From Saccharothrix violaceirubra (lineage in GTDB: Bacteria > Actinomycetota > Actinomycetes > Mycobacteriales > Pseudonocardiaceae), in contig NZ_JACHJS010000001.1 of NCBI RefSeq assembly GCF_014203755.1, positions 1,054,001 to 1,118,000 of the forward strand: 64,000 nt of DNA, in the 5' to 3' direction. Within the stretch, counting starts at the first letter, position 1. Each line of letters begins with the position of its first letter. Shown piece by piece: positions 19,942 through 64,000 of the stretch. The position numbers and the translations under genes were made by a program. Under the pieces are notes generated by a model. The model made no database searches and was not told the DNA's origin. It saw nothing but the letters and a program-made list of their open reading frames with translations.

Positions 19942-19956
19942 GGATTCCTCGCCCGA

Positions 19957-40955: not shown

Positions 40956-41389
40956 GCGTCCGCACCGTGTTCCGCTACCTCTGCGACGCGCCTCGGTGCC
41001 CGGTTTCAGCCACCGGGGAGAGCGCCTCGTCGACTCCGGCTGGTTGGTCCCGCCTGTCCTCCACCGCCCACCTCGCCGGTGTACGGGAGACGAGAGGCAC
41101 GGTGTCGCCGTCGGACCGGGCGCGTGGCAGCTTCAGCCTGCTGCTGTGCCCGGACCACGCACAGGCGTTCGACGGCCACCGGCCGGTCACCGACGGCCGA
41201 CCACCGCGACCGGGCCGTGGTGCGGTCGCGGTGCACGTGGCCTGCACGTGCGGCGGCCTGTCCACCTACGCCGACGCCGCGACCGTGGCCGGTGACACCG
41301 GCGGTGTGCCCGCGCACCTGCCGGAACGCGCCTGGTGGCTGCACCTGCCCGTCGCACTGCGCTGGTACACCACCCGGGAGATGCCGTGA
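40952..41389 (+). CDS. hypothetical zinc-ribbon-like protein
   Basis: 145 aa from ATG 40952 (ATGA overlap). Cysteines at CDAPRCP, LLCPDH and CTCGG could bind zinc. The type is common among actinophage small proteins of unknown function. Rich in Ser and Gly otherwise. Confidence 0.6.
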   Translation: MSVRTVFRYLCDAPRCPVSATGESASSTPAGWSRLSSTAHLAGVRETRGTVSPSDRARGSFSLLLCPDHAQAFDGHRPVTDGRPPRPGRGAVAVHVACTCGGLSTYADAATVAGDTGGVPAHLPERAWWLHLPVALRWYTTREMP

Positions 41390-41718
41390 ACCGGCGGACG
41401 CCGCTGAAGCGCTGCGGCCGAGATGTCCGACGGAGCGGGTATTCGTTGCAGCATCGGCTCCCGCGTGGCCGTGGTGGCACCAACACCATGGCCAACTTGG
41501 TGACGCTCTGCGGATCTGCCACGACAAAATGCCACGGCGAGGTCGAGTCCGGACAACGCGCCCTCGCCACCGCCGAGGGCTGGGTCGTCCCCTCGGGCAT
41601 CCGCCTGGAGGACTGGCCGGTCCTGCGCTTCCGGGAGACGTGGTCGCTGCCCGGCGAGCACGGCTGGGACGACGACGTCGACCCGCACCCGCTCCAGACC
41701 GACCCGAGGCTCACGTGA
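41386..41718 (+). CDS. HNH endonuclease-like protein
   Basis: 110 aa from GTG 41386. SLQHRLPRGRGGTNTMANLVTLCG followed by CHGEVESG matches the compact HNH layout (His, Asn, His with flanking Cys for zinc). Many phages carry HNH proteins for packaging or as homing nucleases; which applies here is unclear. Confidence 0.7.
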   Translation: MNRRTPLKRCGRDVRRSGYSLQHRLPRGRGGTNTMANLVTLCGSATTKCHGEVESGQRALATAEGWVVPSGIRLEDWPVLRFRETWSLPGEHGWDDDVDPHPLQTDPRLT

Positions 41719-46019: not shown

Positions 46020-46412
46020 GTGAACAACACCGCCCTCCTCGCCCGCATCGCCCGCGTCGCCGGACACCCCGCCCTCACCGCCACCACCCCCGACCTCGGC
46101 CGCATCGGCAACATCACCGGCACCGCCAAGCGCGTCGACATCCAGCTCGGCCAGCCGAGCACCGTCGAAATCCTGGCCTCCTGGTACGACCTCCTCCACC
46201 AGTCCCACATCGCCCTGCACGACATGACCCGCTACGACCCCGACAAGACGCTCTCCGTCCACATCGACGTCACCGGCAAGCTCGACGGCGACGAGGTGCG
46301 CGTCTTCACCGCCCTCGACCCCGTCCGCACCGCCCGGCTCCACGCCCTCATGCGCGGCCACGACTCCATCGCGATCGGCGTCGGCACCCTCTGCTCGATC
46401 GAGGCACCGTGA
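46020..46412 (+). CDS. hypothetical protein, 130 aa
   Basis: GTG 46020 chosen because GAGGTGA lies 9 nt upstream; GTG 46008 overlapping the previous stop is the alternative. Contains VHIDVTGKLDGDEVRVFTAL. Mixed alpha/beta, no membrane part. Family not recognised. Confidence 0.6.
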   Translation: MNNTALLARIARVAGHPALTATTPDLGRIGNITGTAKRVDIQLGQPSTVEILASWYDLLHQSHIALHDMTRYDPDKTLSVHIDVTGKLDGDEVRVFTALDPVRTARLHALMRGHDSIAIGVGTLCSIEAP

Positions 46413-47773: not shown

Positions 47774-48480
47774 CCACCGCCTGCGACTGCCCCGACCGCA
47801 TGCATGGCTACGGCCTCGGAGACCTCACCGCCATCGCTCGACGTGCCACCGCCAACGCGCGCGCCCGCGGCGACGTCGACCTGCTCCACGAGGCCGCCTG
47901 GAACGGCTTGGTGGACTGCCTGCTCGCCTCGGAGACCCACCCCGGTCCATGCGAACTCGCGGTCGCCGCCCGCGACGGCATCCTCAACGACATCCATCAG
48001 TGGCAGGGCCACCGTGGACGTCGGAAGAGCTGGGGCAATCCCGGGGCACGGTTCGCTGCCTACTGGCACTCGGATCTCCCTGCCCTCGTCGACCCTCGAA
48101 TCGAAGCGCTCGTCGATCGCATCGCCACCGAGCAGGTCACTCACAAGCTCCCTCGCCACCAAGCCGACCTTCTGCTGCTTCTCGCCGCCACCGGCAGCGT
48201 CCAAGCCGTCGCGACCGCGCGCGGATTGCCCTACGAGACCGTAAAACCGCAAGTACGACAGGCACGTCGGTGTTGGGAAGACCTGTGGTTTGACTGGGAA
48301 CACGCCCACCGCGTGCGACACGCCAAAATCCGGCCACGGCGTCCGATCCAACACGGCACCATCAACGGCTACGCACAGCACCGCCGCCGCTACGAACAGG
48401 CATGCGACGACTGTCGTCACGCGGCACGCGCCTACAACCGGGCACTGGCGGCCTGCGGTAAAAAAGGGAAAGCGAAATGA
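47770..48480 (+). CDS. sigma-factor-like / DNA-binding protein with C-terminal zinc motif
   Basis: 236 aa from ATG 47770. A helix-turn-helix-like segment (ADLLLLLAATGSVQAVATARGLPYETVKPQVRQARRCWEDL) resembles sigma region 4. The end, HGTINGYAQHRRRYEQACDDCRHAARAYNR, is a small His/Cys motif common in actinophage proteins. Its coding DNA is less GC3-biased than its neighbours. Possibly a late-gene or operon regulator. Confidence 0.65.
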   Translation: MTTACDCPDRMHGYGLGDLTAIARRATANARARGDVDLLHEAAWNGLVDCLLASETHPGPCELAVAARDGILNDIHQWQGHRGRRKSWGNPGARFAAYWHSDLPALVDPRIEALVDRIATEQVTHKLPRHQADLLLLLAATGSVQAVATARGLPYETVKPQVRQARRCWEDLWFDWEHAHRVRHAKIRPRRPIQHGTINGYAQHRRRYEQACDDCRHAARAYNRALAACGKKGKAK

Positions 48481-50012
48481 TCACCGTAACCGACCTGTTC
48501 TGCGGAGCCGGGGGCTCCGGACTCGGCGCGACCGCCGTCCCCGGCGTCCAGCTCGTCATGGCCGCGAACCACTCCCCGCGCGCCATCGAGACCCACGCCG
48601 CGAACTTCCCGGACTGCGCACACGACTGCGCCGACATCTCCCAGGTCGAGCCCCGCCGCTACCGGCGCACCAACATCCTGTGGGCGTCGCCGGAGTGCAC
48701 CTCGCACTCCGTCGCGAAAGGACGCAAACGCCGCCAGGTCGGCCCCGGCCTGTTCGACGAACCCCTGCCCGACCACGTCGCCGAACGCTCCCGGGCGACC
48801 ATGTGGGACGTACCCCGCTTCGCCGAGGTGCACCGCTACGACGCGGTGATCGTGGAGAACGTCGTCGACGCCGCGCACTGGGCTCCGTTCCAGGCGTGGC
48901 TGATGGCCATGGACTCCTACGGCTACGACCACCACGTCGTGTACCTCAACTCCATGCACGCCCCCGCGATCGCCGCGCCCCGTGCCCCGCAGTCCCGCGA
49001 CCGGATGTACGTGGTGCTCTGGCGGCGCGGCAACCGACGCCCGGACCTGGAGATCCGGCCGCGGGGCTGGTGCACCGGCTGCGCGGCCGAGGTCGAGTGC
49101 CGGCAGGCATGGAAACGGCGCGGCGCGACGTGGCCGCTGGAGCGGTGGGGCCGCTACCGCGCCCAGTACACCTACGCGTGCACCACCCCGGGCTGCGGCA
49201 GGCCGGTCGAGCCCTACGTGCTGCCCGCCGCGTCCGCGATCGACTGGTCGATGCTCGGCGAACGGATCGGCGACCGGGACAAGCCGTTGTCGGACAAGAC
49301 CATCGCGCGTATCCGCGCCGGCCTGGCCCGCTACGCCGGTGCCCAGCTGGTGCCGTCCGGGGGCACGTGGAACGAGTCCGCCCAACCCGTGACCGGTCCG
49401 TTCCGGTCCCGTACGACCCGGGAGAACGAGGGGCTGCTCGTCCCGGTCGAGGGCAGGGTCGGCAACGCCGCACTCCCAGCCGCGGCACCGATGCGCACCC
49501 AGACGACCCGGCACGAGACCGCGCTGGTCGTCCCGTACTACGGGACCGCCGAGGCCGCGCAGCCGACCGACCGGCCGTTGGGCACCCTGACCACGGTGGA
49601 CCGCTACGGCCTGGCGTTCATCGCCGAGCTGCGCGGCGGCGGCTCCACCGCCCGGGACGTCCGCGAGCCGCTGTCGACCGTGACCGCGAGCGGCACCCAC
49701 CACATGCTCGTCCGGCACAACACCGCGCGCGGCGACGAGGGCTACCTGTCCACGCCCGTGGACGAGCCGATGCGCACGCTCACCACCGCCGGACACCAGT
49801 CCCTGGTCGGCTGGTCCGAGCGGCCTCCGGCCGTGGAGGACTGCACGTTCCGGATGCTCGCCGTCCCGGAGATCCAGCGCGCCATGGCGTTCGGCGACGA
49901 CTACGTGGTCACCGGGAACAAACGCGAGCAGGTCAAGCAGTTGGGCAACGGAGTCACCCCGCCCGCGGCCGAGTTCCTGATCCGCGCCGTCGTCGACTCC
50001 CTCACCCCCTGA
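48477..50012 (+). CDS. C5-cytosine DNA methyltransferase
   Basis: 511 aa from ATG 48477 (ATGA overlap). Motif I TVTDLFCGAGGSGLG; motif IV WASPECTSHS with the catalytic Cys preceded by Pro-Glu rather than the usual Pro-Cys-Gln; motif VI VENVVD; motif VIII QSRDRM; motif X KQLGNGVTPPAAEFL. A variable target-recognition region contains four cysteines (CTGCAAEVEC, CTTPGCG). It is a solitary enzyme with no restriction gene adjacent, probably protecting element DNA against host restriction. Confidence 0.9.
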   Translation: MITVTDLFCGAGGSGLGATAVPGVQLVMAANHSPRAIETHAANFPDCAHDCADISQVEPRRYRRTNILWASPECTSHSVAKGRKRRQVGPGLFDEPLPDHVAERSRATMWDVPRFAEVHRYDAVIVENVVDAAHWAPFQAWLMAMDSYGYDHHVVYLNSMHAPAIAAPRAPQSRDRMYVVLWRRGNRRPDLEIRPRGWCTGCAAEVECRQAWKRRGATWPLERWGRYRAQYTYACTTPGCGRPVEPYVLPAASAIDWSMLGERIGDRDKPLSDKTIARIRAGLARYAGAQLVPSGGTWNESAQPVTGPFRSRTTRENEGLLVPVEGRVGNAALPAAAPMRTQTTRHETALVVPYYGTAEAAQPTDRPLGTLTTVDRYGLAFIAELRGGGSTARDVREPLSTVTASGTHHMLVRHNTARGDEGYLSTPVDEPMRTLTTAGHQSLVGWSERPPAVEDCTFRMLAVPEIQRAMAFGDDYVVTGNKREQVKQLGNGVTPPAAEFLIRAVVDSLTP

Positions 50013-51053: not shown

Positions 51054-51424
51054 TGCCCCGCTTGATGTCCGTCGCGATGACGGAGGACGCCGTCCGATCC
51101 CGCATCAAGACCGTGACGCGTCGCAAGGGCTGGGTCGACCTCCAGCCCGGTACCCGTCTCACCCTGTGCCGCAAGATCATGGGCCGCAAGCCCGGCGAGC
51201 CGCTGGTGCGGATCGTGGACGTCGAGGTCGTGTCCGTCCGCCGCGAACGCCTCGACACCATCACCGCCGACGACGTGGCCCGCGAAGGCTGCCCCGGCAT
51301 GACCCCGGACGAGTTCGTCGACCGGTTCTTCGTGCGCGCCCAGCGGATCGACCCGGCCGCAGAGATCACCCGCATCGAGTGGCGCTACCTGCCCGACACC
51401 ACCGAGGAGACCGTCCGTGCGTGA
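51053..51424 (+). CDS. ASCH-domain protein
   Basis: 123 aa from ATG 51053. The sequence TKTVTRRKGWVDLQPGTRLTLCRK (here KTVTRRKGWVDLQPGTRLTL) and IVDVEVVSVRRERLDTITADDVAREGCPG match ASCH (PUA-like RNA- or nucleotide-binding) proteins common in actinophages. Molecular role unknown. Confidence 0.8.
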   Translation: MPRLMSVAMTEDAVRSRIKTVTRRKGWVDLQPGTRLTLCRKIMGRKPGEPLVRIVDVEVVSVRRERLDTITADDVAREGCPGMTPDEFVDRFFVRAQRIDPAAEITRIEWRYLPDTTEETVRA

Positions 51425-51776: not shown

Positions 51777-52022
51777 GTGGCCAACGACGACACCTGGATC
51801 TACCCCGCACCCGCCTGGAGGACCGGCGACCGGGTCGCCATCGACGACAGCAGCCGCCTCGACTACGACGAGGCTGGGACCGTCATCGGACCCGACCCGT
51901 ACGACAACGGCGCGTGGCTCGTCGAACTGGACGACGGCACCGAGACCTCTGCGTACTCCGATGAGCTGACCGGGCTGATCGAGCCCCACTCCGCTTCGTC
52001 TCCCGAAAGGACAGACACGTGA
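51777..52022 (+). CDS. small hypothetical protein, 81 aa
   Basis: GTG 51777. Beta-rich, with the pattern WRTGDRVAIDDSSRLDYDEAGTVIG...WLVELDDGTE, similar to small SH3-like phage proteins. Overlaps the next gene as GTGA. Confidence 0.55.
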   Translation: MANDDTWIYPAPAWRTGDRVAIDDSSRLDYDEAGTVIGPDPYDNGAWLVELDDGTETSAYSDELTGLIEPHSASSPERTDT

Positions 52023-54682: not shown

Positions 54683-55315
54683 GTGATCATGACCAAGGTG
54701 GTGCTGGACCACCGCAACCCGCAGACCGTCGAGGATCTCCGAAACGCCTACCAAATGCACGTCCGCGTCCGGGAGATCGCCGAGGGCCTGCCCGACCCGG
54801 ACGGCGGCAGGCTGCTGTGGGGCCTGCACGGCACGACCCTGCTCGTGCAGACCGGAGCGGCGGTGTCCCCGCTCGCCCTGCCCGCCGGGTACGCCGTCTC
54901 GGTCCACTCCGCGAACCTGGCATCCCGCCTCGACCGGATCACCGCCGGTTCGGTCGTGCGGTGGGCGGTCATCGCCAACCCGACCCGGGCACGGGCCAAG
55001 GCCACCGCCGTCGGCCCCGACGGCGTCCCGGTGCGCAAGTCGAGGGGCCAGCCCACCCCGGTCGCCCTGGGCGAACGCAACGAGTGGATCACCCGCAGGC
55101 TCGCCCCGGCACTGGAGATCACCGCGCTGACCGGCAGGCCGCTGCCCGCCGCCGCCGGCACCCAGATCCGCACGAGGCACCGCGTGCACCACTCCCGGCA
55201 CCTGTGGCAGGGCACCGCGACCGTGGCCGACCCGGACGTCCTGCGCGGTCTGGTGTCGTCCGGGATCGGCCACGGCAAGGCGTTCGGCTGCGGCCTGCTG
55301 CTGGTGGCGTCGTGA
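54683..55315 (+). CDS. cas6e: Cas6e-type CRISPR RNA endonuclease
   Basis: 210 aa from GTG 54683 with GAGGAGA 7 nt upstream (ATG 54689 alternative). Family features in order: VVLDHRN strand, YQMH with candidate catalytic Tyr23 and His26 (same spacing as T. thermophilus Cas6e), GTTLLVQTG, LPAGYAVSVHSAN, WAVIANPTRARA, GERNEWITRRLAPAL, and the C-terminal glycine-rich loop GIGHGKAFGCGLLLVA. Two ferredoxin-like domains as in type I-E CasE. It would cut precursor crRNA at repeat hairpins. Canonical type IV-B loci lack cas6, so its presence here is notable. Overlaps csf1 as GTGA. Confidence 0.88.
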   Translation: MIMTKVVLDHRNPQTVEDLRNAYQMHVRVREIAEGLPDPDGGRLLWGLHGTTLLVQTGAAVSPLALPAGYAVSVHSANLASRLDRITAGSVVRWAVIANPTRARAKATAVGPDGVPVRKSRGQPTPVALGERNEWITRRLAPALEITALTGRPLPAAAGTQIRTRHRVHHSRHLWQGTATVADPDVLRGLVSSGIGHGKAFGCGLLLVAS

Positions 55316-56070
55316 CCTCGCCGACCCGACTCGTCTGGGGACTGGCCGGACACCCCGAGCCGACCGGGGCCGTCGCGAACCTGTTCGCCGACCGGCCCGG
55401 GATGTGCGTGATGTGCGGGCTGTCCGCCGACCGCACCGCCGACGCCGCCCGTGCGACCGGCGCGAACTTCACCGACCAGTACCTGTACCGCCGGCCGGAC
55501 TCGGACCGGATCTGCCCGGCGTGCGTGTGGTGCTGCTCGGGGAAACCCCCGGCGACGCTGCGCATGTGGACGGTCGTCGCCGCGATCGGCGCGACCCTGC
55601 CCGACAACCACCCCAAGTGCTGGCTGCCCAGCCAACCAGGTTTGTGCCTGACCAACCGGGCCGCGCCCGGTGTCGTCGCCGACATCCTCGCCGCCCCACC
55701 GGAGGGGGCGTGGCTGGTCACCGTCGCGACCTCCGGGCAGAAACACGTCCTGCCCTACGGGAAAGTCAACCACGGCGGTCCCGAGTGGACGGTCCGAATG
55801 GAGAACACCACGATCACCTCCAACGCCCCCACGTGGCGCCGCGTCCTGGGCCACGCCGCCACACTGCGCGCGGCCCGCCACACCGGCGACGACCTCGCCG
55901 CCGGGCGGCCCACCCTCGCCGCGATCCGCACCGCCGACGACCTCGACACGTGGAACCACCACCACGCCGGACTCGCCGACCACGTCGGCTCACCACTACT
56001 CGACCTAGCCCTCTGGTGCCTGACCAAGGAGACGATCCATGACCACGCCCACGCCGCCCCCGTCGCCTGA
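55312..56070 (+). CDS. csf1: Csf1-like (type IV Cas8-like) protein
   Basis: 252 aa from GTG 55312. Two cysteine pairs, Cys32-x2-Cys35 (MCVMCGLS) and Cys68-x2-Cys71 with extra Cys74/75 (ICPACVWCC), form the zinc finger expected in Csf1, with TDQYLYRRPDSD between them. The C-terminal half is helical (WRRVLGHAATLRAARHTGDDL). Length fits the reduced large subunit of type IV effector complexes. Assignment rests on the cysteine pattern, size and position before cas11-csf2-csf3. Overlaps the next gene by 32 nt. Confidence 0.78.
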   Translation: MTSPTRLVWGLAGHPEPTGAVANLFADRPGMCVMCGLSADRTADAARATGANFTDQYLYRRPDSDRICPACVWCCSGKPPATLRMWTVVAAIGATLPDNHPKCWLPSQPGLCLTNRAAPGVVADILAAPPEGAWLVTVATSGQKHVLPYGKVNHGGPEWTVRMENTTITSNAPTWRRVLGHAATLRAARHTGDDLAAGRPTLAAIRTADDLDTWNHHHAGLADHVGSPLLDLALWCLTKETIHDHAHAAPVA

Positions 56071-56398
56071 CGAGCTGATCCAGGCCACCGTCGCCTGGCT
56101 CAACGCGCTGCTCGACTCGGCCTCGGCCGACGTGCTCGGCGTCGCCCACTACTGGGACCGCGCCCAGTCCGCGCTGATCACCGCCGCCACCGCCGACACG
56201 GTCGGGGAGGCGGTCACCACCGCCGCCCGCAAACTCCAGATCGAGACCACCCAGGCCCGCACCGACACCGCGCTGCTGGAGGCGTGCGCGGTGATCGCCG
56301 CCGACTACCCCGCCTGGCAGGCGAGGGTGGAACGCGAAGCCGTCTACCTCGTCGCCCTCGCCCGTGTCGCCCGCACCGCCCGGAAGGCCACCCGATGA
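56039..56398 (+). CDS. cas11: Cas11-like small subunit (predicted)
   Basis: 119 aa from ATG 56039, starting inside csf1. After a Pro-rich start it is entirely helical with no Cys (DELIQATVAWLNALLDSASAD, AVTTAARKLQIETTQARTDTALLEACAVIAADYPAW in part). Size, helicity and position between csf1 and csf2 match the small subunit of type IV-B loci such as that of Rhodococcus jostii. Sequence alone would not identify it. Overlaps csf2 as ATGA. Confidence 0.65.
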   Translation: MTTPTPPPSPDELIQATVAWLNALLDSASADVLGVAHYWDRAQSALITAATADTVGEAVTTAARKLQIETTQARTDTALLEACAVIAADYPAWQARVEREAVYLVALARVARTARKATR

Positions 56399-57285
56399 CC
56401 ACCACGCTGACGATCCCGTTCACCGCCACCCTGGTGGCGCCGCTGCACCACGGCGCCGGCACCGCCGGCAACACCAGCCTCATCCGCACCCAGCGGATGG
56501 TCCGCCCCGACGGCACCGTAGCGCAGGTGCCGTTCGTGTCCGGGAACTCGCTGCGCCACGGCCTGCGCGCCGGCCTGGCCTGGCACGCCGTGCGCACCCT
56601 GGGCGTCGAGGACGGCGGCCTGTCCAAGGCCGTGGTCGACCTGCTGTGGTCCGGCGGCGCGATCACCCGCACCGGCTCCCAGACCGACCTCGCGCTGCTG
56701 CGCCGGGTCGAGCACCTGTACCCGCCGCTCGCCCTGATGGGGTACAGCGCCGCGGCCGACATGACCGCGGGCACCCTCGCCGTCGACCAGCTGCACCTGG
56801 TCTGCGCCGAGAACGCGTGGCGGCTGCCCGGGCGGCTGGCCGGCGACCCACGCGCCGCACGGCCGGCGTCGGCGTTCCGCGGCGAGGAATTCGGGACTCG
56901 CCACGACGTCGCCGGGACCCCGGTCGACCGGTACACCGCGCTGGCCGACGAGCTGGTCCCCACCACCACCCAGATGATCTACGAGCACCAGGTCGTGCTG
57001 CCCGGTGCCGCCCTGTACGGCGGGCTCGTGCTGACCCCGGCGGCCACCGACGCACAGCTCAGGGTCCTGCTCGTCGCCCTCGACGAGATCATGCCCGCCG
57101 ACCGGGACGGCGTCCGCGTCCTGCAACTTGCCGCGAAGCGCGGCGTCGGCTACGGCACCTGCCGGGTCGACCTCGACCTGCCGGACGGCCTGCCCACCCC
57201 CGCCGACGCCCGCGCCTGGTGGGAAGCCCACCTCGTCGAGCACGCCGAGGAGATCACCGCCCTGTGGCAGGAGATCGTCGCGTGA
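56395..57285 (+). CDS. csf2: Csf2 (Cas7-type RAMP) protein
   Basis: 296 aa from ATG 56395. FTATLVAPLHHGAGTAGNTSLIRTQRM, PFVSGNSLRHGLRAGLAWHAV and the late ALDEIMPADRDGVRVLQLAAKRGVGYG carry the RAMP pattern of Cas7/Csm3 proteins, with a glycine-rich G-x-G-Y-G end. This subunit would polymerise along the guide RNA to form the backbone of the complex. A Csm3-like acidic residue for RNA cleavage is not obvious. GTGA overlap with csf3. Confidence 0.85.
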   Translation: MTTTLTIPFTATLVAPLHHGAGTAGNTSLIRTQRMVRPDGTVAQVPFVSGNSLRHGLRAGLAWHAVRTLGVEDGGLSKAVVDLLWSGGAITRTGSQTDLALLRRVEHLYPPLALMGYSAAADMTAGTLAVDQLHLVCAENAWRLPGRLAGDPRAARPASAFRGEEFGTRHDVAGTPVDRYTALADELVPTTTQMIYEHQVVLPGAALYGGLVLTPAATDAQLRVLLVALDEIMPADRDGVRVLQLAAKRGVGYGTCRVDLDLPDGLPTPADARAWWEAHLVEHAEEITALWQEIVA

Positions 57286-57995
57286 GCCCGGTCGTCCCCG
57301 CCGGCACCGTGGTCGACACCACCGACGACCCGCGCTGGCAGCCACTGGTCGTCACCGCGACCCTGACCGAGCCGGTCGTCGGCCTGGACTCGCAGCCGCT
57401 GTGCCTGGACGGGCCGCTGGCGTGGTGCGCCGCGCAGCTCGCCCTGGCCGACGAGGCCGGCCTGCCGCCGCTGCGGCACGACTGGGCACCCGACCTCGCC
57501 CTGCCCCTGGCCACGTGGACCGCCGCGCCCTCCCGGCCCGACACCGACTCGCGGCTGCGCGCCGCCGACGGCGAACGGGTGTGGGGGTGGGCGTGCTCGG
57601 CCGCGTCGTGGACCGCGCTCGGCCACACCACCGTCGAGATCCGCCGCCGTCCCCCGGTCGGAGAGATGGCCCGGTTCACCGCGGACGGCAAGCACCACTC
57701 CGGGTTGGGCCCGTACAAGGCCCGGGACACGCCGATGGCCGCGACCTGGGTCGACACGGTCGTCTGGCACGCCCTGGGCGACCCCGACGCCGTCGCCGGG
57801 CTGCTCGCCCACCTGGGACACCTGGGCCGGGCGACCCGGCACGGCCACGGCCGCATCCAGACGATCACCGTCGAACCCGGCCGGGACCGGGACGCGTGGC
57901 GGTCCCGGCCGCTGCCCGACCCGACCGGCCCGGCCGGGTCGATCCGCGCCCCCTACCACCACCACTCCCGGAGGATGCCGTGCCGCACCCCGTGA
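57282..57995 (+). CDS. csf3: Csf3 (Cas5-type RAMP) protein
   Basis: 237 aa from GTG 57282. LVVTATLTEPVVGLDSQPLCLDGPLAWCAAQLA opens a RAMP domain; GLGPYKARDTPMAATWV and LGHLGRATRHGHGRIQTITV supply the glycine/arginine-rich segments of Csf3. It would cap the 5' end of the guide. Overlaps the methyltransferase gene by 16 nt. Confidence 0.82.
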   Translation: MSPVVPAGTVVDTTDDPRWQPLVVTATLTEPVVGLDSQPLCLDGPLAWCAAQLALADEAGLPPLRHDWAPDLALPLATWTAAPSRPDTDSRLRAADGERVWGWACSAASWTALGHTTVEIRRRPPVGEMARFTADGKHHSGLGPYKARDTPMAATWVDTVVWHALGDPDAVAGLLAHLGHLGRATRHGHGRIQTITVEPGRDRDAWRSRPLPDPTGPAGSIRAPYHHHSRRMPCRTP

Positions 57996-58885
57996 TCGCC
58001 TGGGACGGGCAGCCGGTCGGCGACCGCTACCCGGCGATGGACGTCGTCCCCGGCGTGCTGCCCTGGTCCACCCTGGACCAGGACTCCCGGCCGTGGCAGG
58101 ACCGCAAGAAGCACTGGCACGACCTGGGCGTCCGCGACACCACGCCCCGCGACCACGCCGCGGGGATGATGACCACCGGACGGCACGGCGCCCTCTCGGG
58201 CGGGGTGTCGCGGTTCGACCCGGTGCTCGCCGAGGTCCTGTACCGGTGGTACTGCCCGCCGGGCGGGCGGGTGCTCGACCCGTGCGCGGGCGGACCCGTA
58301 CGCGGCCTGGTCGCCTCCCACCTGGGCCTGGAGTACGTCGGCGTCGACCTGGACGCCGACCAGGTCGACGCGAACACCGCCGTCGCGGCGGGTTCGCCGT
58401 ACCCGTCCCCGGCCTGGTTCGCCGGGGACGCGCTGACCTACGCCTGGCCGGTCTCCGACGGGGACGCGGACATGGTGCTGACCTGCCCGCCCTACCACGA
58501 CCGGGAGCGCTACTCCGACGACCCCCGCGACCTGTCCACCATGGACTGGCCCGCGTTCCTCGACGCCCACCGCGCCGTGGTCGGCCGGGCCGCCGCGGCG
58601 CTGCGCGAGGACCGGTTCCTCGCGTGGGTGATCTCCGACGTCCGCGACCGGCACGGCCACCTGCGCGGCCTGCCCCGCCACGCCTGGCAGCACCTGGAGG
58701 ACGCCGGACTGCACGTCGTCAACGAGCACGTGCTGCGTGCCCCGGTCGGCACCGCGCACAAACGCATGCGCCCGCCGTGGCAGGCGTGCCGCACCGCGAC
58801 CCGCCGCCACCAGATCGTCCTGGTCGCGGTCAAGGGCGACCGGCGTGCCGCGACCCGCGCCGTGTCCGGGGGTGGCGGGTGCTGA
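57980..58885 (+). CDS. DNA N4/N6-methyltransferase inside the cas operon
   Basis: 301 aa from GTG 57980, CGGAGG 6 nt upstream, starting within csf3. Motif I RVLDPCAGGPVRG (Asp100) binds AdoMet, EYVGVDLDADQVDAN is motif II, and MVLTCPPYHDRERYSDD is motif IV (T-C-P-P-Y, residues 168-172), the amino-methylating type. Residues 1-95 are unrelated to the catalytic core and could recognise DNA. It overlaps cysH by 7 nt, so it is made with the CRISPR proteins. Not a known core component of type IV loci; target unknown. Confidence 0.85.
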   Translation: MPHPVIAWDGQPVGDRYPAMDVVPGVLPWSTLDQDSRPWQDRKKHWHDLGVRDTTPRDHAAGMMTTGRHGALSGGVSRFDPVLAEVLYRWYCPPGGRVLDPCAGGPVRGLVASHLGLEYVGVDLDADQVDANTAVAAGSPYPSPAWFAGDALTYAWPVSDGDADMVLTCPPYHDRERYSDDPRDLSTMDWPAFLDAHRAVVGRAAAALREDRFLAWVISDVRDRHGHLRGLPRHAWQHLEDAGLHVVNEHVLRAPVGTAHKRMRPPWQACRTATRRHQIVLVAVKGDRRAATRAVSGGGGC

Positions 58886-59652
58886 TCGACTCGACCCGGA
58901 TCACCGACCGCGACCGCGACCACTGGGACGCGCTGGAGCGCTACGACCGGATGCTCGCCGCCGACCCGGCCCTGGACCGCAAGGCCGAGAGCGCCGTCGC
59001 CGAGGTCCGGGCGTTCCTGGACGCGGGCGAGGCGTACGTGTCGGTGTCCTGGGGCAAGGACTCCGTCGTCGTCGCCCACCTGGCAGCCCTGGCCGAGCTG
59101 ACGGTCCGGGTGGTGTGGGTCCGGTCGGTCCTGTTCGAGACCCCCGAGTGCGACGCGGTGCGCGACGCGTTCCTCGACGCCCACCCGCAGGTGCGCTACG
59201 AGGAGATCGCGGTCGAAATGCGGAACCCGAAACGCGGCGAACCGGGCTACGACACCCGGCACGCCGACCCGCACGCCGACCACCAGGACGTCCTCCGGGA
59301 GACCCTGACCGGCCGGTGGATCTCCGGGCTGCGCGGCGAGGAGTCCCGGATGCGCCGCATGTCCATCGCCCACCGGGGCCTGTCCACGAAGAACACGTGC
59401 CGGCCGATCGGCCGGTGGGACGCCACGCACGTGTTCGCCTACCTGTGGCGCGAGAAACTCCCGGTGCACCCGGTGTACGCGATGACCGCCGGCGGACACT
59501 ACGACCGCCGCTGGCTGCGGGTGCACCCGCTGGGGTCGGCACCCCCGGCCCGGTCCGCCGTGCACGGCCGGGACATGGACTCGTGGGAGGACGCCTACTA
59601 CGGGGACGTGCTCGCCGCCGCGAGGCAGGCCCGCGCCCACCTGTGGCGGTGA
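58879..59652 (+). CDS. CysH/PAPS-reductase-like PP-loop protein
   Basis: 257 aa from GTG 58879. VSVSWGKDSVVVAHLAALAEL is the PP-loop (Ser57 to Ser62) that binds an adenylyl nucleotide; SGLRGEESRMRR and CRPIGRWDATHVFAYLW are further family motifs. The C-terminal ECG(I/L)H motif of sulfate-assimilating CysH is absent, so classic PAPS reduction is unlikely. A cysH-like gene is the hallmark neighbour of type IV-B CRISPR loci (known), with unknown function; DNA or RNA thio-modification is one idea. Last gene before a strong terminator. Confidence 0.88.
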   Translation: MLIDSTRITDRDRDHWDALERYDRMLAADPALDRKAESAVAEVRAFLDAGEAYVSVSWGKDSVVVAHLAALAELTVRVVWVRSVLFETPECDAVRDAFLDAHPQVRYEEIAVEMRNPKRGEPGYDTRHADPHADHQDVLRETLTGRWISGLRGEESRMRRMSIAHRGLSTKNTCRPIGRWDATHVFAYLWREKLPVHPVYAMTAGGHYDRRWLRVHPLGSAPPARSAVHGRDMDSWEDAYYGDVLAAARQARAHLWR

Positions 59653-63462: not shown

Positions 63463-63774
63463 CTACTCGCCGTCGCCGTTCCCGTGGTCGCGGTACCACC
63501 GCAGCCACGACCAGGGCCTCACCCACACACCCCACGGCATCATCGACTCCTCGGTCCCGGTCAACCCCGCGACCCCGACCTCGATCAGCCGCATCCCGCC
63601 CAGGACGACCACCACGACCGCGGGCGCGACGGCCGGGGCCAGCCACCACGGCCACCGGACGTCCCGGGCCACGTCGGACCACCTGTCCGCCTCGACCGCG
63701 ACGACCACGCACCACCCCAGGCCCAAGGCCGCGCTGACGGTTTCCCTGAGCAGCTCCCGGTTCGTCTTCTTCAC
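63463..63774 (-). CDS. small membrane protein, 103 aa
   Basis: GTG 63774 overlaps the upstream stop as GTGA; longer in-frame starts would overlap that gene. Two hydrophobic stretches, about residues 9-24 (TVSAALGLGWCVVVAV) and 37-62 (WWLAPAVAPAVVVVVLGGM), and a Trp-rich end (WGVWVRPWSWLRWYRDHG). Function unknown. Confidence 0.6.
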   Translation of the reverse strand: MKKTNRELLRETVSAALGLGWCVVVAVEADRWSDVARDVRWPWWLAPAVAPAVVVVVLGGMRLIEVGVAGLTGTEESMMPWGVWVRPWSWLRWYRDHGNGDGE

Positions 63775-64000
63775 GACGACTCCTCTCCTTCCCGTTCCGT
63801 GTCGTCCGGTGCGGCGCCCGGAGCACGTCGCCCCGGCGTGGTCAGCGCCGCCTCGGGATCCCACCCGTTGATCAGCCGCGACCGCAGCGCCGACACCGAG
63901 ACCACGCAGCGCTCGTCACGCGCCCACTGCGCCTGGGTCTTCTCCTCCCCGAACGCCACCAGCATCGGCGACGGCCTCCCCCCGCCCGCACCGCGTCCGG
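63771..64000 (-). CDS. HNH/homing-type DNA-binding domain protein, 5' end outside window
   Basis: The frame ends at 63771 and stays open past the window edge. Residues FGEEKTQAQWARDERCVVSVSALRSRLINGWDPEAALTTP follow the pattern of a small helix-turn-helix unit repeated in phage HNH and AP2-type proteins (F-G-E-x-K-T...W-A-R-D...L-x-x-R-L-x-x-G-W-x-x-E-x-A-L-T-T-P). An internal ATG at 63965 could also be the start, giving 64 aa. Confidence 0.6.
   Translation of the reverse strand, partial: GRGAGGGRPSPMLVAFGEEKTQAQWARDERCVVSVSALRSRLINGWDPEAALTTPGRRAPGAAPDDTEREGEESS

Follow-up and report, generated by a model that had tools for sequence, protein, structure and literature searches.

Type IV-B systems of clustered regularly interspaced short palindromic repeats (CRISPR), such as that of Mycobacterium sp. 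JS623 (PDB 7JHY), combine csf1, cas11, csf2 and csf3, in that order, with a cysH gene, and have neither an array nor dinG. According to the available text of PMC8175902, they are without an enzyme for processing CRISPR RNA (crRNA), which the accessible part of PMC7937560 states as "generally" the case. The binding partners and function of IV-B complexes are treated as an open question in the available parts of PMC7937560, PMC8175902 and PMC11656645, and the idea of IV-B as a sponge is already in print (accessible text of PMC8175902). Here, we describe an operon of seven overlapping genes on the forward strand (54683–59652) of a 64,000-nucleotide stretch of Saccharothrix violaceirubra DNA (the window; bases 1,054,001–1,118,000 of a single 7.35-Mb contig; host genome G000). 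The operon shares the IV-B gene order, the cysH gene and the lack of an array, with no dinG seen, but adds an I-E-type Cas6e, often a DNA methyltransferase, and a prophage as carrier, and the identity of its Csf2 to the plasmid relatives found does not exceed 34%. The host carries type I-E arrays, some spacers of which match this prophage perfectly. We consider the chances about evenly balanced that the prophage-borne IV-B set and its Cas6e divert crRNAs of the host I-E arrays and thereby protect the phage.

The initial annotation proposed a one-strand operon of cas6e, csf1, cas11, csf2, csf3, a DNA methyltransferase and cysH with every joint overlapping, and this arrangement is borne out; the gene limits stand, except that csf1 extends to 56070, overlapping cas11, and that the methyltransferase starts at about 57980. 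The first gene, cas6e (54683–55315), encodes a predicted I-E-type crRNA endonuclease of 210 residues, recognized by the PADLOC Cas6e model (5e-28) and Pfam PF08798 (CRISPR_assoc, 5e-27); its best solved match is the Cse3-family protein 5U07 (1e-14). The second, csf1 (55312–56070), encodes a type IV Cas8-like large subunit, and its suggested relation to Csf1 is supported by a match to PADLOC Csf1_0_IV (7e-34), with zero Pfam matches. It is followed by a cas11-like small subunit of 119 residues (56039–56398; PADLOC PDLC01187, Csf4gr11 "possibly Cas11", 2e-25). The products starting at 56395 and 57282, earlier read as Cas7- and Cas5-type proteins, are assigned by the models to exactly these classes, csf2 (56395–57285) matching PDLC01572 (type IV Cas7) at 2e-86 and csf3 (57282–57995) matching Csf3_0_IV (type IV Cas5) at 2e-28. 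The best solved structure for the Csf2 profile is the IV-B Csf2 of 7JHY (5e-17), followed by a Cas7c (2e-10). The PADLOC matches of the five Cas proteins thus range from 2e-25 to 2e-86, and Pfam identifies the two remaining products as a DNA methyltransferase (57980–58885; N6_N4_Mtase, 3e-6; PADLOC MTase_II, 1e-10), in which the motif DPCAGG precedes the motif TCPPY, and a cysH-like PP-loop protein with a SWGKDS motif (58879–59652; PAPS_reduct, 9e-12). Matches to the NCBIfam models of Csf1, Csf2, Csf3 and Cas6e all stay under the cut-offs, and the Cas set is therefore divergent. In Rfam, nothing reaches the gathering threshold.

The order csf1-cas11-csf2-csf3 with a neighboring cysH, taken at the outset as the hallmark of type IV-B, is confirmed by the PADLOC and Pfam matches and by the match to 7JHY. 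The type IV-B call holds for the effector set (the csf1, csf2 and csf3 core, with the cas11-like gene between csf1 and csf2), for its order, for the cysH neighbor (12/12 carriers, see below) and for the absence of an array of at least three repeats. Cas6e, however, lies outside the published definition of IV-B, and the operon is therefore filed as a IV-B variant. Type IV-A, some members of which have Cas6e, likewise places Csf proteins alongside a Cas6e, but carries dinG and an array of its own and lacks Cas11 (available text of PMC8175902 and PMC7937560), whereas Cas11 and cysH are present here and an array was not found. The earlier remark that no dinG or recD is visible agrees with the lack of any DinG or RecD match (Pfam, PADLOC) among the eight locus products scanned, the other prophage genes being outside that search. 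On these eight products, the operon differs from the RecD-associated variants, which have a RecD-like helicase; in the accessible parts of the sources, Cas6 is listed for IV-D (PMC11127173), and the Cas7 of a chimaeric variant is of IV-B origin (PMC12669027). The Fuxivirus IV-B of Bathyarchaeia viruses is also virus-borne and has cysH, but it contains a two-repeat mini-array, and cas6e is not mentioned for it in the available text of PMC10848311. The Cas-derived and RNA anti-CRISPRs AcrIB3, AcrIB4 and Racr similarly turn phage-borne CRISPR parts against the host CRISPR, but are single mimics in the parts of their descriptions that are available, whereas an entire effector set with a processing enzyme is conserved here. 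A IV-B family equipped with Cas6e, its association with I-E hosts and the finding of self-targeting appear to be new: neither IV-B with Cas6e nor a link to I-E self-targeting was found in the accessible text of the open-licence PMC literature, and an earlier mention in the Pinilla-Redondo 2020 survey is possible.

Csf2 peptide patterns were scanned against one genome per species (84,980 species), which reaches close relatives only; nine additional loci were found, every one in an actinomycete. The order cas6e-csf1-cas11-csf2-csf3 and then cysH is kept in all nine, with an adjacent methyltransferase in five. Among 242 Corynebacterium genomes searched, six are carriers, of which two are new and have cas6e, cysH and the methyltransferase. 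In total, cas6e accompanies csf1-cas11-csf2-csf3-cysH in 12/12 carrier genomes, and a methyltransferase stands beside the operon in eight of them. The source genome is the sole carrier among the 297 genomes of its own family. IMG/VR contains 19 contigs with the operon family, 16 of them with cas6e; at least five appear to duplicate named loci, and L004 and L012 seem identical to IMG/VR contigs. Three viral contigs of the same Csf2 family (L098, L101 and L103) have no detectable cas6e, and L101 shows three cysH-like matches. Plasmid and phage collections returned distant Csf2 relatives only (plasmids at ≤34% identity, Skermania phage SPI1 at 29.6%); the Cas6e profile has no match at three distant Csf2 loci, in two of which the same profiling missed csf1 and cas11. 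A protein search scored 329 relatives; where a source supplies a name for one of the 120 listed, that name is hypothetical or uncharacterized. By these comparisons, the operon is predicted to be a type IV-B effector set plus an I-E-type Cas6e, in a conserved arrangement.

His26 of the operon Cas6e sits in an AYQMH motif and is presumably the catalytic histidine of Cse3; a glycine-rich loop (GIGHGKAFGCG) lies near the C-terminus. The histidine at this position is present in 10/10 genome Cas6e copies and in 19 of 20 IV-B rows, viral copies included, and the glycine-rich loop is also conserved. Because of the conservation of both, the operon Cas6e looks active. In a tree of 36 Cas6e rows (vir93_IVB and G414_div, too short, were left out), the 12 host I-E copies form a single group (support 97/95), separate from the IV-B copies, which lie alongside one divergent I-E-like copy. 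This tree is compatible with one origin of the IV-B copies and with more than one. Divergent Cas6e copies without Csf2 in five Corynebacterium genomes were considered as solitary IV-B remnants and rejected, since an array is present in each fetched stretch.

Arrays of at least three repeats of at least 20 bases (two-repeat mini-arrays are outside the reach of the search) are absent from the window, from the nine named loci with flanks of up to 10 kb each and from L112 and L113. The same script recovered the 28-repeat array of the host as a positive control, and the initial observation that no array is visible holds both for 50–64 kb and for the window as a whole. Nor was an I-E-like array found at any of the 12 genome loci. 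An own array or a solitary I-E repeat in the prophage was rejected, the host repeat having at least eight mismatches there (best at 51796); a 6-mismatch match at 19942 falls outside the prophage. Short tandem repeats of 19 bases (three copies in L006, four in L103) were not counted as arrays. A second, canonical I-E Cas6e is encoded elsewhere in 11 of the 12 carrier genomes, each of which also has arrays near its I-E genes, with 28–29-nt repeats at ∼61-nt spacing. The base rates are 104/297 for any Cas6e in the family of the source genome and 90/242 for canonical Cas6e in Corynebacterium, where canonical Cas6e is found in five of the six carriers (Fisher p=0.028). For IV-B as a whole, by contrast, a negative co-occurrence has been reported (quoted in the available text of PMC7937560). 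The source genome has a further array with a 38-nt repeat (L127, 838–856 kb), beside a full Cas1 match, which is not of type I-E.

Spacers of the host arrays were compared with the IV-B region of the same host. Perfect matches, matches with at most four mismatches and total spacers number 4/12/91 in the source genome (16 of whose spacers come from a non-I-E array), 3/5/43 in G297, 19/30/99 in G299, 3/8/28 in G300, 2/4/48 in G301, 2/13/85 in G302, 16/34/75 in G303, 1/1/21 in G305, 16/26/114 in G399, 0/0/8 in G304 and 0/0/6 in G298. Where the I-E effector genes are complete and at least 20 spacers are available, every genome (8/8) has spacers that match its resident IV-B region perfectly, giving 64 matches in total; this count leaves out G298 and G304, with six and eight spacers, and G302, with an incomplete I-E system. 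The effector genes were identified by tblastn in the source genome, G297, G300, G301, G305 and G399, as well as in G299 and G303, where cas3 is cut at the end of the fetched stretch. The 12 matches of the source genome all lie within the prophage, with none in the host stretches scanned; they include a perfect match at 41327–41359 (host I-E spacer L124:6774) and single-mismatch matches at 41464–41496 (L014:9563), 46280–46312 (L014:9013) and 51296–51328 (L124:6713). No match was obtained with reversed spacers or in ∼160 kb of further host DNA taken from three genomes. The dinucleotide immediately 5′ is AA at 35 of the 39 perfect protospacers of forward-read arrays, and that immediately 3′ is TT at six of the seven of reverse-read arrays (source genome and G300), as we would expect for the protospacer adjacent motif of type I-E; in G301, AA is beside one of the two perfect protospacers.

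Thirteen Corynebacterium genomes that have I-E and a prophage lacking IV-B genes served as controls; one of these genomes (G405, no spacers found) was dropped, leaving 12 with 822 spacers. Perfect self-matches occur in one of them (G433, two spacers), and matches with at most four mismatches in three (ten matches: five in G433, four in G354 and one in G368). Carriers thus persist despite perfect self-matches from an I-E system complete by gene content in 8/8 cases, compared to 1/12 controls (p=7e-5). As the carrier spans (∼79–101 kb around csf2; 124 kb in G000) are longer than those of the controls (40 kb around the terminase), equal 40-kb spans were also compared, with seven of eight carriers and one of 12 controls self-targeted (p=8e-4). 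In G299, no spacer matches the 20 kb examined of another prophage, which lacks IV-B. The first 38 spacers of the G299 array (L075) include 20 with a match to the IV-B region of this genome; these come in runs, and those ranked 7–14 all match. With the leader end so inferred, the runs look as if adaptation had continued under blocked interference.

Clustering of open reading frames of at least 60 residues (E 1e-6) from 11 element regions (up to ∼80 kb, not always whole prophages; G298 left out) showed that the real genes present in all 11 are cas6e, csf1, cas11, csf2, csf3 and cysH only. Other clusters in ten or 11 regions are antisense shadows that overlap these six genes in every member, and the next-widest are an SSB-like cluster (8/11 regions) and a tape measure cluster (six). 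On this basis, the common cassette would be the simplest shared cause of survival under I-E attack. The SWGKDS motif of CysH is conserved in 11/11 aligned sequences and the methyltransferase motifs are recognizable in 7/7, so that both proteins are probably enzymes.

The gene set, its conservation, its location in a prophage, the co-residence with I-E arrays and the perfectly self-matching spacers are seen in the sequence; capture of host RNA, a block of I-E and a part played by CysH or the methyltransferase are inferred. The phage Cas6e would cut host I-E pre-crRNA at the repeats, and Csf3, with Csf2 and Cas11, would load the freed guides into the Csf complex instead of the host Cascade. With fewer guided Cascades, Cas3 would not be recruited to the prophage despite matching host spacers. 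The CysH-like protein and the methyltransferase might act at a later step, on RNA or DNA bound by the complex. The family would supply the processing enzyme missing from IV-B and point to host I-E arrays as the likely source of guides. The persistence of self-targeted elements is a strong genetic sign of function, and the family makes the "guide sponge" idea directly testable; if correct, guide capture would explain how a virus persists in cells whose CRISPR memory matches it exactly.

Several points weigh against this reading. The flanking motif is not uniform, as G399 has GA at 11 of 16 perfect protospacers and AA at four (one extra repeat base allowed), and the self-targeting of G302 is uninformative because tblastn on the I-E locus of this genome gave no cas8e, cas11e or cas3. 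Spacers of one genome are not independent, and the control I-E loci were covered from about cas5e on, with the interference genes outside that stretch. The perfect self-matches of G433 to an IV-B-less prophage and the near matches (one to four mismatches) of G354 and G368 mean that other inhibitors, or tolerance, exist. One carrier, G361 (operon at G361:C1 654525–659337, L112), departs from the I-E association: it lacks a canonical Cas6e and, by pattern, an I-E array, and shows a single chance-like 2-mismatch match. A plain RNA sink does not need the conserved CysH. Finally, the one IV-B complex studied, which has no Cas6 of its own, was not enriched for co-expressed I-E crRNAs (available text of PMC7937560), whereas the operon here encodes a Cas6e.

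Survival might instead be due to another gene of the element, either a conventional anti-CRISPR or, in the source prophage, a solo Cas8e, or to a silent I-E system, the IV-B set being unrelated; we regard this as unlikely, if worth serious attention. The source prophage does have a solo Cas8e/Cse1-like gene on the reverse strand (63771–65642, with 63771–64000 inside the window; L017:1-1642), which matches Pfam CRISPR_Cse1 and PADLOC Cas8e at 1e-47 each, the family match being confined to the N-terminal part (PF09481 positions 1–278 of 450), and it is possibly a dominant-negative anti-CRISPR. Cas-derived anti-CRISPRs are known, for example the Cas8b-like AcrIB4 (accessible text of PMC13131331), and control G433 self-targets without IV-B. 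However, no Cse1 was found outside the I-E locus in the other nine first-found carriers, and no further gene occurs in all 11 element regions, a test that a small, diverged or fast-changing anti-CRISPR gene would escape. The G433 prophage (L205, L206) is itself a candidate for carrying another anti-I-E gene. We think it rather improbable that host I-E crRNAs are hijacked as guides against rival phages and plasmids (superinfection exclusion), with something else protecting the prophage. That arrangement would account equally for Cas6e, the absence of an array and the I-E co-residence, but more perfect self-matches than in IV-B-less prophages would not be expected from it, and guides matching the prophage would steer the complex onto its own carrier.

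It is very unlikely, in our judgment, that phage-matching host crRNAs guide the IV-B complex to phage protospacers, where CysH and the methyltransferase modify the sites and hide them from Cascade; if this were so, such marking of self-protospacers would amount to RNA-guided modification of DNA, with host immunity as the source of the guides. The more general proposal, that the crRNA-loaded complex directs the CysH-like protein and the methyltransferase to mark matching DNA chemically, is to us at least as improbable. The conservation of the motifs of both proteins fits it, and modification of nucleic acids by CasCysH is suggested in the available text of PMC8175902, but the methyltransferase adjoins the operon in just eight of 12 carriers. 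Guide capture remains our preferred reading of the cassette, at the strength given at the start.

The carrier is a prophage of ∼80 kb that extends from ∼36.4 to ∼116.6 kb in window numbering, with approximate ends. Its left part (36867–64000, left end approximate) contains regulators, an exonuclease, an ERF protein and a replication initiation protein, the last three 5′ of the operon, and the IV-B operon itself. Genes for the terminase large subunit, portal, major head, tape measure, endolysin, a phrog_850 RNA-binding protein and an integrase are located beyond the window end. Of the "prophage/ICE-like" chromosomal element with recombination genes first described, the prophage stands, as does its distinction from a plasmid; an integrative and conjugative element (ICE) or a plasmid as carrier is ruled out by the virion and integrase genes. 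As read from translations, a serA-like gene appears to border the prophage on its left side, and a region that includes a leuB-like gene on its right. Repeats common to both prophage ends, sought as attachment sites, are never longer than 12 bases, and a tRNA-like fragment at 116589 recurs as a perfect copy of 26 bases at genome position 1,563,548. Phage genes are found within the element region of seven carriers (the source genome, G299, G301, G302, G303, G361 and G399), identified in the latter six by a terminase or by a cluster with the tape measure of the source prophage; this check did not take in G298, G300 and G304. The prophage has a second DNA methyltransferase, of the C-5 cytosine type (48477–50012; PF00145, 6e-22). 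The gene that matches the phrog_850 "RNA-binding protein" is located past the window, at 113151–114728 in window numbering (L019:9151-10728), and its product resembles, as we take it, a TROVE/Ro60 protein.

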